This document shows, in pieces, positions 23,549-27,983 of a DNA stretch of 64,000 nucleotides (position 1 is the stretch's first letter; the number at the start of each line of letters is the position of its first letter). The DNA comes from Kineococcus aurantiacus (GTDB taxonomy: Bacteria; Actinomycetota; Actinomycetes; Actinomycetales; Kineococcaceae), in the NCBI RefSeq assembly GCF_013409345.1, contig NZ_JACCBB010000001.1, positions 930,001 through 994,000 of the forward strand, given 5' to 3'. The notes beneath the pieces are model-generated. The model saw only the letters and a list, made by a program, of their open reading frames with translations, was not told the DNA's origin and made no database searches. The position numbers and the translations under genes are program-made.

Positions 23549-23977
23549 ATGGTCAGTGGCCCCGCCGAAGCGCTGGAACGCGAGCTCGCCGTCCTCCTGC
23601 GGCGATCGCGTGCGATCAACCGGGAGACCGCGAACAGCGTCCACCCGGACCTGGAGCCGGAGGCGTACAGCCTGCTCGTGCGCCTCGACGACGTCGGACA
23701 GGCGCGCCCCTCGGACCTGGCGACGTTCTTCGGGATCGGCAAGCCCACCTTGTCCCGGCAGGTCCAGCTCCTGGAGCGGCTGGGGCTGGTCAGCCGGGAG
23801 GCGGACCCGACCGACGGCCGCGCCGTGCGCCTGACCCTGTCCCCCGACGGCCTGGAGAAGGTCCACGCCGCCCGCGCCGCGCGCCGCCAGCGCCTGCACA
23901 CCCGACTGGAGGGCTGGCCCGAGGAGGACATGACGACCCTGGCCACCCTCCTGCACCGGCTCAACACGGCCATCTGA
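23549..23977 (+). CDS. MarR-family transcriptional regulator
   Basis: 142-residue winged-helix regulator. The DNA-binding part reads VGQARPSDLATFFGIGKPTLSRQVQLLERLGLVSREADPTDGRAVRL, followed by a C-terminal dimerisation helix. It diverges from padR-ino1 and stands alone, with a strong hairpin behind it, so its target may be distant or itself. It is about as similar to the second MarR gene at 24125 as two ordinary family members are. Start ATG 23549 has only a weak purine stretch upstream. Signal unknown. Confidence 0.85.
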   Translation: MVSGPAEALERELAVLLRRSRAINRETANSVHPDLEPEAYSLLVRLDDVGQARPSDLATFFGIGKPTLSRQVQLLERLGLVSREADPTDGRAVRLTLSPDGLEKVHAARAARRQRLHTRLEGWPEEDMTTLATLLHRLNTAI

Positions 23978-23999: not shown

Positions 24000-24034
24000 G
24001 TGACCCCGCGCCCGGCCGTCGGGCGCGGGGTCAC
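24000..24034 (+). terminator. Hairpin after the first marR gene
   Basis: Arms GTGACCCCGCGCCCG (24000-24014) and CGGGCGCGGGGTCAC (24020-24034), perfect over 15 pairs with a 5-base loop, 22 bases after the stop. It separates the two MarR units. Confidence 0.75.
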
Positions 24035-24057: not shown

Positions 24058-24096
24058 GGTTGCATGAGGCAACCAATCGACCTATGGTTGCTTGCA
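24058..24096. promoter_or_regulatory. Candidate operator and promoter region of the marR-exporter operon
   Basis: GGTTGC-ATGAG-GCAACC (24058-24074) is an inverted repeat with 6-base arms. A related GGTTGCTTGCA follows at 24086-24096. Both lie just upstream of the marR-exporter-YceI operon start at 24125. MarR proteins usually bind such short dyads and autorepress, so this is the likely site of derepression by a drug-like ligand. Confidence 0.6.
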
Positions 24097-24124: not shown

Positions 24125-24610
24125 ATGGCCACCCCGCACGCGTGCGCAGCGCTCGTCGACGTCTTCCCGGACCTGCTCCGGGCCCGCCGCTGCCTGGTCG
24201 GCACGCTGAACACCCCCGCCGTCGCCGCCCTGGCCGTCGTCCACCAGCACGGCCCGCTGCGCCTGAGCGAAGTCGCCGAGCACCTCTCGCTCGACCTGTC
24301 GACCGTCAGCCGCCAGGTGTCGCACCTGAAGGCCAAGGGCCTGCTGCGCGCCACCCCCGACCCCGACGACGGGCGCTCGCACCGGCTGACCGTCACCGAC
24401 GCCGGGGTCGAGGACCTGCGCGCGTTCCGGCGCACCGTCGTCGACCGGCTCGTCGGCCAGCTCGGCAGCTGGCACGACGAGGACGTCCAGGACCTCACCC
24501 GGCTGCTCGGGCGCCTCGCGCGCACCACCGGGTGCACCCCCGCGACCACGCCGGCACCGCCGGAGAACGCCCACACCCACCAGGAGAACCCGTTGCAGGC
24601 GAACGCATGA
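24125..24610 (+). CDS. MarR-family regulator of an exporter operon
   Basis: 161 residues. The winged helix reads HGPLRLSEVAEHLSLDLSTVSRQVSHLKAKGLLRATPDPDDGRSHRL. The tail is Pro/Thr/His-rich and poorly structured. ATG 24125 has GAAGGT upstream and was preferred over an ATG at 24092 that lies inside the putative operator region. Its stop overlaps the ATG of the downstream transporter gene (ATGA), so regulator and exporter are coupled. The usual logic would be repression of the operon until a substrate of the exporter binds the regulator. Confidence 0.87.
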   Translation: MATPHACAALVDVFPDLLRARRCLVGTLNTPAVAALAVVHQHGPLRLSEVAEHLSLDLSTVSRQVSHLKAKGLLRATPDPDDGRSHRLTVTDAGVEDLRAFRRTVVDRLVGQLGSWHDEDVQDLTRLLGRLARTTGCTPATTPAPPENAHTHQENPLQANA

Positions 24611-27138
24611 GCGCCACCACCCACACCCAGGCCCCGCAGCTGGACGGCACCGCCCCCAAGATGAGCCACGGGGAGGTCCTCGAGGCGCTGTCGGGCCTGC
24701 TGCTGGGCATGTTCGTCGCGATCCTGTCCTCGACGGTCGTCTCGAACGCGCTGCCCACCATCGTCAACGACCTGCACGGCACCGAGTCCGGCTACACGTG
24801 GGTCGTCACCGCCGCGCTGCTCGCCACGACGATCTCCACCCCCATCTGGGGCAAGCTGTCCGACCTCTTCTCCAAGAAGCTGCTCGTCCAGTCCGCCCTG
24901 GTGCTCTACGTCCTGGCCTCGGCCGTCGCCGGCCTGTCCACCAACATGGGCACGCTCATCACCCTGCGCGTGTTCCAGGGCATCGGCGGCGGCGGCCTGC
25001 TCGCGCTGGCCCAGGTGATCCTCGCCTCGATGGTCAGCCCCCGCGAGCGCGGCCGGTACTCCGGCTACCTCGGCGCGACGTTCGCCCTCGCGACCGTCGG
25101 CGGCCCCCTCATCGGCGGCGTCCTGACCGAGCACCTGTCCTGGCACTGGTGCTTCTACGTCGGCATCCCCTTCGCCGTCCTGGCCTTCGTCGTCCTGCAG
25201 TTCAAGCTCAAGCTGCCGGCCCAGCCCCGCCGCGCCGTCTCCATCGACTACCTCGGCGCCCTGCTCATCGCCGCCGGCATCTCCGCGCTGCTCATCTGGG
25301 TGTCGCTGGCCGGCACCGAGTTCGACTGGGCGTCCTGGTGGACCGTCGGTCTCGTCGCCGCCGGCGTCGTCCTGCTGGCCCTGGCCGTCCTGGCCGAGCA
25401 CCGCGCCACCGAGCCGATCGTCCCGCTGAAGTTCTTCCGGAACCCGACCATCGCGCTGTCGGCCGCCGCCAGCCTCTTCGTCGGGGTCGCCATGTTCGGC
25501 GCCACGATCTTCCTCAGCCAGTACTTCCAGCTCGCCCGCCACGAGACGCCCACCATGGCCGGCGTCATGACCATCCCGATGATCGTCGGGCTGTTCCTCG
25601 CCTCCACCGTCGCCGGGCAGTTCATCACCCGCACCGGCCGCTGGAAGGCCTGGCTCGTCGTCGGCGGCGTGCTGCTCACCGCCGGCCTGGGCCTCATGGG
25701 CACCATCGAGTACGACACGAACTACTGGGTCGTCGCCCCGTACATGGCCCTCATCGGCCTGGGCGTCGGCATGATGATGCAGAACCTCGTCCTGGCCGTG
25801 CAGAACGTCGCCGAGCCCCGGGACATGGGCTCGGCGTCCTCCTTCGTCGCCTTCGCCCGCAGCCTCGGCGGGGCCATCGGAGTCTCAGCCCTCGGCGCCG
25901 TCCTGGGCCACCGGGTCACCACCCACCTCCAGGACGGGCTGACCGCCGCCCGCATCGACCCCGCCGCGGCCCTGTCCTCGCTGGGCTCCAGCACCGGCGT
26001 GCCGAACCTCGGGGCGATCCCCGAGCCGGTCCGCTCGATCGTGCAGGCCGCCTACGGCTCCTCCATCGCCGACGTCTTCCTGCTCGCCGCGCCGTTCGCG
26101 CTCGTCGCCTTCGTCATCACCCTGTTCTTCAAGGAGCGCGCGCTGCGCACCGACGGCGGCCAGGACGCCCCCGCGGCGGCCGCACCTGCGAAGATCGACG
26201 CAGCTGCGATGAACGGTGCTCAGATCGACGGTGCCCAGCACCAGCACCCCGAGCGGGAGGAGGTCCCCAGCGTGCCTGCCCAGTCCACGCGCACCGACGC
26301 CGGGCTCACGTTGTCCGGCACCGTGCGCCACCACGACTCCCGGCCGCTGGCCGGCGCCGTCGTGACCCTGGCCGACCAGTCCGGCCAGCAGGTCGCCCGC
26401 ACCGCCAGCCGCGACGACGGCGGCTACTCCCTGGCCCTGCCCACCGGCGGGACCTACCTGCTCATCGTCGCGGCCGCCCACGTGGCCCCCGCCGCGACCC
26501 TCGTGGGCATCGGCGACACCTCCGTGACCCGCGACGTCGTGCTGTCGGGGCGCTCGGCCATCACGGGCCGGGTCCTGGCCCACGAGCCGCACCAGGCCGA
26601 CGAGCCGCTGCGCACCCACGGCGTGCAGGGCGCCCTGGTCACCCTCACCGACGTCACCGGCGAGGTCGTCGGGTCCACCCGGACCGACGGCGGCGGCGGG
26701 TACGCCTTCGACCAGCTCATGGGCGGCGCCTACGTGCTGACCGCCCAGAGCGAGTCGCACCGGCCGCTGGCCCGCAGCGTCGAGGTGCCCGACGCCGGCG
26801 CCCTGGCCTGCGACCTCGTCCTGACCGGCGGGGGCCGCCTCACCGGCACCGTGGTCGCCGCCAGCGACGGCCGCGTCCTGCGGGAGGCGTCCGTCACCCT
26901 CGTCGACGCCGACGGCGAGGTCGTCGGGTCCGTCGTCACCGGCCCCGACGGCAGCTACTCCTTCGAGGACCTCGCCGGCGGCCACTACACGCTGACCGCG
27001 GCCGGGTTCGCCCCCGTGGCCGCGTCCGTCGACGTCGAGGAGGACTCGGTGTCCGCCGCCCGGATCACCCTCGGGACCGGCACCGGTCCCGCCGTGCTCG
27101 ACCTGACGCGCTTCGACGCCCGCTCGGAGCAGCGGTGA
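24607..27138 (+). CDS. DHA2-type MFS exporter fused to carboxypeptidase-regulatory-like domains
   Basis: 843 residues. Residues 1 to about 515 form a 14-helix drug:H+ antiporter of the EmrB/QacA type: LSSTVVSNALPTIVNDL in helix 1, WGKLSDLFSKK in the first loop, and LRVFQGIGGGGLLALAQ. A flexible Ala/Gln-rich linker follows (516-564). Three beta-sandwich repeats then start near 565, 650 and 742. Each has the SGTV/TGRV/TGTV start, a G-A-x-V-T-L strand and the D-G-x-Y-x-x closing strand of the carboxypeptidase-regulatory/CnaB-like family. With 14 helices the C-terminus should be cytosolic, which makes this domain placement odd. Coupled at both ends to marR and yceI genes. Confidence 0.9.
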   Translation: MSATTHTQAPQLDGTAPKMSHGEVLEALSGLLLGMFVAILSSTVVSNALPTIVNDLHGTESGYTWVVTAALLATTISTPIWGKLSDLFSKKLLVQSALVLYVLASAVAGLSTNMGTLITLRVFQGIGGGGLLALAQVILASMVSPRERGRYSGYLGATFALATVGGPLIGGVLTEHLSWHWCFYVGIPFAVLAFVVLQFKLKLPAQPRRAVSIDYLGALLIAAGISALLIWVSLAGTEFDWASWWTVGLVAAGVVLLALAVLAEHRATEPIVPLKFFRNPTIALSAAASLFVGVAMFGATIFLSQYFQLARHETPTMAGVMTIPMIVGLFLASTVAGQFITRTGRWKAWLVVGGVLLTAGLGLMGTIEYDTNYWVVAPYMALIGLGVGMMMQNLVLAVQNVAEPRDMGSASSFVAFARSLGGAIGVSALGAVLGHRVTTHLQDGLTAARIDPAAALSSLGSSTGVPNLGAIPEPVRSIVQAAYGSSIADVFLLAAPFALVAFVITLFFKERALRTDGGQDAPAAAAPAKIDAAAMNGAQIDGAQHQHPEREEVPSVPAQSTRTDAGLTLSGTVRHHDSRPLAGAVVTLADQSGQQVARTASRDDGGYSLALPTGGTYLLIVAAAHVAPAATLVGIGDTSVTRDVVLSGRSAITGRVLAHEPHQADEPLRTHGVQGALVTLTDVTGEVVGSTRTDGGGGYAFDQLMGGAYVLTAQSESHRPLARSVEVPDAGALACDLVLTGGGRLTGTVVAASDGRVLREASVTLVDADGEVVGSVVTGPDGSYSFEDLAGGHYTLTAAGFAPVAASVDVEEDSVSAARITLGTGTGPAVLDLTRFDARSEQR

Positions 27139-27983
27139 ACGCCGAACCGGCCGCCCGGCGGCACGCCACGGCCGCCGGGAACGGCGTCACGGGCGAGGGC
27201 CGCGTGCTGACCCGCGAGGGCTGGCCCGTGACCGGCGCCTCCGTGACGCTCCTGGGCGCCGACGGGTCGCAGGTGGCCCGGGCCGTGACCGGCGGCGACG
27301 GCGGCTTCGCCCTGCTCGGGGTGCCCGCGGGGGCGGCGACCATGCTCGTCGCCGCCGCGGCGCACGAGCCCCGCGCGACCAGCGTCGTCGTGCCCGCCGA
27401 CGGCGCCTGGCGCGTCGGGGAGGTCCGGTTGCGGCGCCAGGGCGGCAGCGACGTCCCGCCGCCGGGGGTGTGGGTGATCGACATCGCGCACTCGACGATC
27501 TCCGCCACGGCCCACCACCTGGGCCTGTCCGCCGTGCACGGCCGGTTCACGGGCTTCTCCGGGGTCATCACCGTCCCCGAGGACGTCACGCGGGCCACCG
27601 TGGAGGTCGAGATCGACGCGACCTCCATCGACACCGGCAACGGCGTGCGCGACGACCACCTGCGCTCGCCGGACTTCCTCGACGTCGCCCGGTACCCCAC
27701 GCTGACGTTCCGCGCCGCGGGCGTCCAGCGCGGCGCCGACGGCTGGGTCCTGGCCGGGGACCTGACCCTGCTGGCCACCACCCGGCCCGTGGAGCTGCAG
27801 CTGTCCTACGCCGGCAGCGGCCCGGACCCCTGGGGCGGCACCCGGGCGGCCTTCACGGCCACCACCGAGCTGCACCGCGACGACTTCAAGATGAACTGGA
27901 ACCAGGCCGTCGGGATCGGGGTCGCCGTCTTCGGGACCACCCTGAAGGTCCAGATCGACGTCCAGGCCGTGCTGCAGCAGTAG
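27135..27983 (+). CDS. YceI-like lipocalin-fold protein with N-terminal carboxypeptidase-regulatory-like domain
   Basis: 282 residues. Residues about 18-100 repeat the same beta-domain pattern as the exporter tail (TGEGRVLTREGWPVTGASVTLLG, then TGGDGGFALLGVPAG). From about 112 a YceI domain follows: GVWVIDIAHSTISATAHHLG, VHGRFTGFSGVITV, DATSIDTGNGVRDDHLRSPDFLDV and a final FGTTLKVQIDV strand. YceI proteins bind isoprenoid-like lipids in some bacteria and are often periplasmic, but no signal peptide is visible here. The GTG start overlaps the exporter stop (GTGA). The shared extra domain suggests that transporter and binding protein work on the same ligand. Confidence 0.88.
   Translation: MNAEPAARRHATAAGNGVTGEGRVLTREGWPVTGASVTLLGADGSQVARAVTGGDGGFALLGVPAGAATMLVAAAAHEPRATSVVVPADGAWRVGEVRLRRQGGSDVPPPGVWVIDIAHSTISATAHHLGLSAVHGRFTGFSGVITVPEDVTRATVEVEIDATSIDTGNGVRDDHLRSPDFLDVARYPTLTFRAAGVQRGADGWVLAGDLTLLATTRPVELQLSYAGSGPDPWGGTRAAFTATTELHRDDFKMNWNQAVGIGVAVFGTTLKVQIDVQAVLQQ

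Follow-up and report, generated by a model that had tools for sequence, protein, structure and literature searches.

An apparent MarR-controlled export operon in Kineococcus aurantiacus pairs a DHA2-type exporter bearing a triple CPD tail with a CPD-YceI protein

Organization of the operon

Three overlapping genes on the forward strand of Kineococcus aurantiacus contig NZ_JACCBB010000001.1 were examined within a window, by which we mean the whole stretch of 64,000 nucleotides that was analysed (positions 930,001 to 994,000 of the contig), and all positions given here are counted from its first letter. They encode a MarR-family regulator of 161 aa (marR, 24125–24610), identified by Pfam and by reading of the sequence, an 843 aa major facilitator superfamily (MFS) exporter of the DHA2/EmrB type that ends in three carboxypeptidase regulatory-like domains (CPD; 24607–27138), and a protein of 282 aa in which a further CPD precedes a YceI lipocalin-like barrel (27135–27983). 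The coordinates that an earlier note on this DNA had given for the pair (24607–27983) are correct: the exporter gene runs from an ATG at 24607 to a stop ending at 27138, and the YceI gene from a GTG at 27135 to a stop ending at 27983. Its placing of a MarR gene at the head of the operon was also borne out: the product of marR scores 47.4 bits with the MarR model PF01047 (cut-off 24.6), and the position of its start codon is kept across Kineococcus. The end of marR overlaps the start of the exporter gene by 4 bases (ATGA) and the stop of the exporter gene overlaps the start of the YceI gene (GTGA), and hence the three genes have the layout of a co-transcribed unit. This layout, the domains encoded and the conservation of both are best explained by a single MarR-controlled export operon. 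Fusion of the exporter and YceI in one polypeptide was not noticed in any of the loci fetched, though no dedicated search for it was made.

The exporter and the location of its tail

The exporter had been read as a 14-helix DHA2 protein ending in three beta-sandwich repeats, and on this Pfam, TIGR00711 and AlphaFold agree. Scores of 182.7 bits with MFS_1, 246.4 bits with the EmrB model TIGR00711 (cut-off 230.2) and 119.8 bits over three stretches with CarboxypepD_reg (PF13620) were obtained. The AlphaFold model (26 sequences, mean pLDDT 80) consists of 14 long helices, a disordered linker at residues 516–565 (26152–26301; pLDDT <50) that is predicted to be cytosolic, and three beta-sandwiches at approximately residues 567–646, 650–739 and 743–822. 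The helices form a membrane body at residues 20–515 (24664–26151), on which fold matches and a topology count also bear. CPD repeat 1 (26308–26544) was located by domain and profile matches and repeat 3 (26839–27072) by profile matches, while for repeat 2 the part matched by Pfam covers 26620–26823, with support from profile matches and AlphaFold, and the domain starts at about 26554 in the model. A plain hydropathy scan found only 13 helices, having missed helix 2.

A count of K and R residues based on the helices of the model gave 17 for the side of the membrane that bears both termini and 5 for the opposite side, and motif A is likewise located on the terminal side. Because the number of helices is even and because of the positions of these residues and of motif A, both termini, and hence the tail, are predicted to be cytosolic, as the earlier note had expected. 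CPD-type domains are known mostly from extracellular proteins, and the structural neighbours here include teneurin and cohesin–dockerin X modules. This would fit an arrangement in which the tail and the YceI protein are both extracytoplasmic, with exported molecules or those of the envelope as their targets, which is how the majority of known CPD domains operate. However, the helix number and charge distribution of the exporter argue against it, as do the lack of a signal peptide on the YceI protein (see below) and the charges of a 12-helix MMPL body that bears the same tail (25 K+R at the terminal side versus 5 at the other). Given the helix number and the charges, an extracellular tail is unlikely, and we consider this arrangement very improbable.

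An acidic residue in helix 1 is a motif of the proton-coupled DHA2 drug antiporters. A D or E was present in all six of the other tailed DHA2 exporter rows that were aligned, compared with none of the 20 rows of the subfamily to which the window exporter belongs, where residue 41 (24727–24729) is Ser in every case. The window exporter therefore does not have the helix-1 acid of a proton-coupled DHA2 antiporter.

The CPD-YceI protein

The product of the third gene scores 146.5 bits with the YceI model PF04264 (cut-off 23.7), and its barrel (27471–27968, from Pfam and fold) matches 1y0g with a TM score of 0.88 by target length. That the protein opens with a CPD of the type found in the exporter tail is upheld by a CarboxypepD_reg score of 39.7 bits (cut-off 32.3) for the domain at 27195–27425. 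Nor is a signal peptide visible, again in agreement with what had been noted: the hydrophobicity of the first 60 residues is nowhere strong (best mean over 15 residues, 0.79), and most of the Streptomyces orthologues start at, or just before, the first strand of the CPD. Relatives are labelled simply 'YceI family protein' in a plasmid gene table.

Conservation and co-occurrence

In each of the 11 Kineococcus genomes, a gene for an exporter with a triple CPD tail precedes a CPD-YceI gene, and because of this recurrence the architecture cannot be put down to chance. The earlier note had named a survey of co-occurrence in other actinobacteria as a check on its proposal and a lack of co-occurrence as counting against it; co-occurrence proved to be very strong. 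In a sample of 148 genomes from the class, in which tail matches were accepted at E 1e-20 or better, 25 genomes had a tail match and 14, including that of K. aurantiacus, had a CPD-YceI of the close type, with a tailed exporter adjoining it in 14/14; one hit that covers the N-terminal domain but includes three stops (G050) is left out of this count. A MarR gene is present in the fetched stretch of 12 of the 13 other close-type genomes, the stretch from the 13th ending at a contig edge. In three of these genomes (L132–L134), the MarR gene is downstream instead.

In 121 Streptomyces genomes, the tail adjoins 83 of the best 85 CPD-YceI hits, at least 42 of them by coordinates and 41 of the other 43 by reading the fetched DNA, where the tail is on the same strand, with the cut-off at 85 hits picked after seeing where adjacency ended. 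The check by coordinates compared the 150 YceI places among the matches listed with 53 tail places, the latter a selection of the tail matches listed plus five from the class sample. Two hits depart from this: at L228 the exporter body is found but the tail is not readable in one frame, and L235 lacks tail and MarR gene alike and resembles the class of unlinked CPD-YceI considered below. Three of the 41 loci with a tail on the fetched DNA are cut by a contig end (L194, L220 and L233, the last with only two repeats). For the lower-scoring Streptomyces CPD-YceI hits, of which 65 were listed, no tail was found beside any of the 17 fetched. The Streptomyces exporter bodies (L123–L131 and L193–L234) fall into approximately five discrete clusters, and the distances between these only weakly track the distances found for the tail, the YceI protein and the MarR regulator encoded with them.

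In a sample from the order, the tail profile matched 15 of 149 genomes, made up of all ten Kineococcus genomes and five others. One of another family (G698) has a complete pair of exporter and CPD-YceI, and a genome from the same family and another genus had no match to the tail profile. This patchy distribution hints at transfer or loss.

Promoter and probable operator

Upstream of marR, reading of the DNA showed a promoter-like sequence and an overlapping palindrome (together 24060–24091, forward strand). In the promoter-like sequence, TTGCAT (24060–24065) and TATGGT (24083–24088) are separated by a 17-base spacer, and the palindrome, GCAACCA-N8-ATGGTTGC (24069–24091), is probably the MarR operator. 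The same layout, with small changes, is upstream of marR in the 6 other Kineococcus and 9 Streptomyces loci inspected, and the operator is thus common to two distant orders; it is absent ahead of marR in L132 and L133, two loci with marR in the downstream position. The operator pattern has one match in the window and none in 100 shuffles. It also identified one site per genome in nine of the 11 Kineococcus genomes (in two of the nine the palindromic site reads on both strands), compared with none for a reversed-pattern control. MarR is likely to control mainly its own operon, and a single, well-defined operator provides a direct route to the inducer. A second MarR gene (23549–23977) lies upstream of the operon, and a long G+C-rich hairpin (24000–24034) is located between it and the operon promoter.

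The triple tail on other transporters

The genome of K. aurantiacus encodes one more triple tail, which belongs to an MMPL transporter (L015:5479–8820, minus strand; C1, approximately 2910.5–2911.3 kb). In other Kineococcus genomes, additional MFS exporters as well as MMPL proteins have triple tails, and the ten Kineococcus genomes of the order sample have 26 tails between them. Repeat profiles trained on the tails from Streptomyces and others that are not linked to YceI placed 33/33, 33/33 and 33/33 of the repeats of the remaining classes correctly; the profiles from the other two training sets placed every repeat 3 and all but one repeat 1, and did less well with repeat 2. These comparisons mark the triple tail as a portable module whose repeat order is constant across MFS and MMPL carriers.

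The tail of the window exporter shares 50 % identity with the MMPL tail from its own genome versus 42 % with the tail of a Streptomyces orthologue, though the bodies of these two orthologues are 64 % identical. In genome G006 (L014 and L054), the YceI-linked exporter and another MFS exporter have bodies that share 32 % identity and tails that share 79 %. Hence, the tail moves as a block and becomes alike within a genome, whether by gene conversion, through a shared partner, or both.

One possible role for such a tail would be to regulate its own pump by stabilising, oligomerising or gating it on its cytosolic side, perhaps responding as a sensor to a ligand or to the YceI protein, with no handover of cargo. 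The conserved number and order of the repeats and the flexible linker are compatible with this, as is the presence of the same tail on transporters of different superfamilies. However, the CPD on the YceI protein would be left unexplained, and similarity that tracks the genome rather than the pump would be odd for a pump-specific gate, making regulation of this kind unlikely.

MFS exporters with two C-terminal CPD domains are also present in the same order (L087, L266 and L267). At L051:1700–4723, a triple tail is preceded by a frame that reads as no transporter, perhaps due to a frameshift in the gene or in the assembly.

A possible handover of cargo in the cytosol

Efflux pumps are thought to draw their substrates either from the membrane or directly from the cytosol. 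For the operon described here, we propose that the three CPD domains would hang from the last exporter helix into the cytosol on their flexible linker, and that the YceI protein, which is likewise predicted to be cytosolic, would bind a lipophilic molecule, be it a drug, a metabolite or an isoprenoid, in its barrel. The CPD of the YceI protein would dock on the CPD tail of the exporter, keeping the cargo soluble near the inner mouth of the pump, and the exporter would then expel it. The ligand would probably also release MarR from the promoter palindrome. By analogy with Rv1410–LprG and with ligand-holding relatives of YceI (both described below), carrier and pump might meet in this way at the inner side via CPD contacts, and like tails on unlike bodies in one genome are what a shared partner, or gene conversion, might be expected to produce. 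Also in its favour are the adjacency of the pair in Kineococcus, the class sample and Streptomyces, an operator common to distant orders, the even helix number and the charge count of the exporter, the start of Streptomyces YceI orthologues at the first CPD strand, and the constant repeat order of the tail on unrelated transporters. The earlier note had suggested such a handover, and its reading is partly supported, namely in the predicted location of the tail, the absent signal peptide and the co-occurrence. Docking and handover of cargo from YceI to the exporter within a MarR-controlled operon is plausible, and we put it forward tentatively. If correct, a soluble lipocalin that feeds a pump from the cytosolic side would add a new step to efflux, and one found in Streptomyces, the main antibiotic producers.

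On the other MFS and MMPL proteins, the tail may serve as a common docking platform for YceI or for another soluble partner. A broader version of the proposal, that the tail, with its three ordered prealbumin-like domains, is an actinobacterial portable cytosolic docking module which has moved onto DHA2, other MFS and MMPL transporters and stayed alike in each genome, and into which CPD-YceI-like cargo binders plug to deliver substrate from the cytosolic side, seems doubtful to us. The portable tail itself is a sequence mark by which further pumps with a possible soluble partner in common can be sought.

Several observations weigh against a handover. Of the 25 genomes in the class sample that have a tail, 11 lack a close CPD-YceI, and triple tails are found on exporters and MMPL transporters that have no YceI gene as neighbour. 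CPD-YceI proteins of a second class were beside a tailed exporter in none of 23 loci (6 from the class sample and 17 from Streptomyces; L136–L141 and L236–L252), and eight Streptomyces genomes hold a CPD-YceI of this class with no triple tail found at E 1e-40. As these unlinked proteins were never seen beside a tail and persist without one, the CPD has some use away from tails. As for an origin of the YceI CPD from one of the tail repeats, two of the three training sets pointed to repeat 1 and the MMPL-trained set to repeat 3, and this assignment is weak. Without the helix-1 acid, which is replaced by Ser, the energy coupling of the exporter and even drug/proton antiport by it are uncertain. 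Finally, though a first mirror-tree run with tail and YceI produced positive partial correlations, the co-divergence of tail and YceI (r 0.73) was equalled by that of tail and MarR (0.72), the control. It is therefore explained by descent and was rejected as a sign of contact. At two of the four second-class loci checked, the CPD-YceI gene adjoins a DNA polymerase III delta gene.

MFS and MMPL proteins that have a tail but no YceI neighbour, the tail-bearing genomes that lack a close CPD-YceI and the unlinked CPD-YceI in genomes without tails would all be accommodated if the tail were a general cytosolic platform at which another partner, or other tails, dock or cluster. The CPD on YceI would then have come from duplication of the neighbouring gene, and YceI would work alone as a buffer for lipophiles or quinones in the same stress response; YceI proteins have been tied to lipid peroxyl detoxification (PMC9113575). 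However, the CPD-YceI of the linked class and the tailed exporter stay paired across Kineococcus, Streptomyces and other families, and the CPD is retained in every linked-class YceI seen. Such a platform is possible but not probable.

Comparison with known systems

No description of an exporter–CPD/YceI fusion or operon was found in full-text searches of an open-access library, as judged by title and the start of the abstract, nor was one of the cytosolic placement or the portable triple module. The operon and the module are real and apparently undescribed, the individual domains being already known.

The fold of the exporter body is nearest to EfpA, EmrB and MHAS2168 (a homologue of Rv1410); the VIA-align list of structures covers the membrane body only and not the tail. 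A 14-helix membrane body is shared with EmrB, EfpA and QacA, but the chains listed for these are 470–629 residues long and match only that body, and the subfamily of the window exporter differs from them in having Ser in place of the helix-1 acid.

Rv1410 is a mycobacterial MFS exporter of triacylglycerides whose partner on the outer side is the lipid carrier LprG, encoded in the same operon (PMC10576003). The window operon resembles this pair in the fold of the exporter (8pnl, Z 38.4, rmsd 4.2, 458 residues aligned) and in encoding a partner with a hydrophobic pocket, as LprG is in the same account (PMC10576003). It departs from it in that LprG, there described as an outer-side lipoprotein that takes lipid from the pump, is an exported partner, whereas the partner in the window is a YceI protein on which no signal peptide was seen, and both it and the exporter carry CPD.

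Octaprenyl pyrophosphate, ubiquinone-8 or hydrophobic antibiotics are held in the barrels of YceI relatives (PMC5350466, PMC9113575), with BcnA binding the antibiotics (PMC5350466). BcnA and BcnB (5ixg, 5ixh), with LcoA, are similar to the window system in that a YceI barrel is encoded beside a membrane protein gene. However, they are secreted or periplasmic, their partner LcoA is a cytochrome b561, and CPD is not mentioned in the portion of PMC9113575 available; the neighbour of the window YceI gene is an MFS exporter, and no signal peptide was seen on its product.

With carboxypeptidase D, CnaB and the teneurin TTR domain, the window CPD share the CPD/prealbumin-like fold and the Pfam family, but they differ from these in standing as three in a fixed order on an exporter, at the face predicted to be cytosolic.

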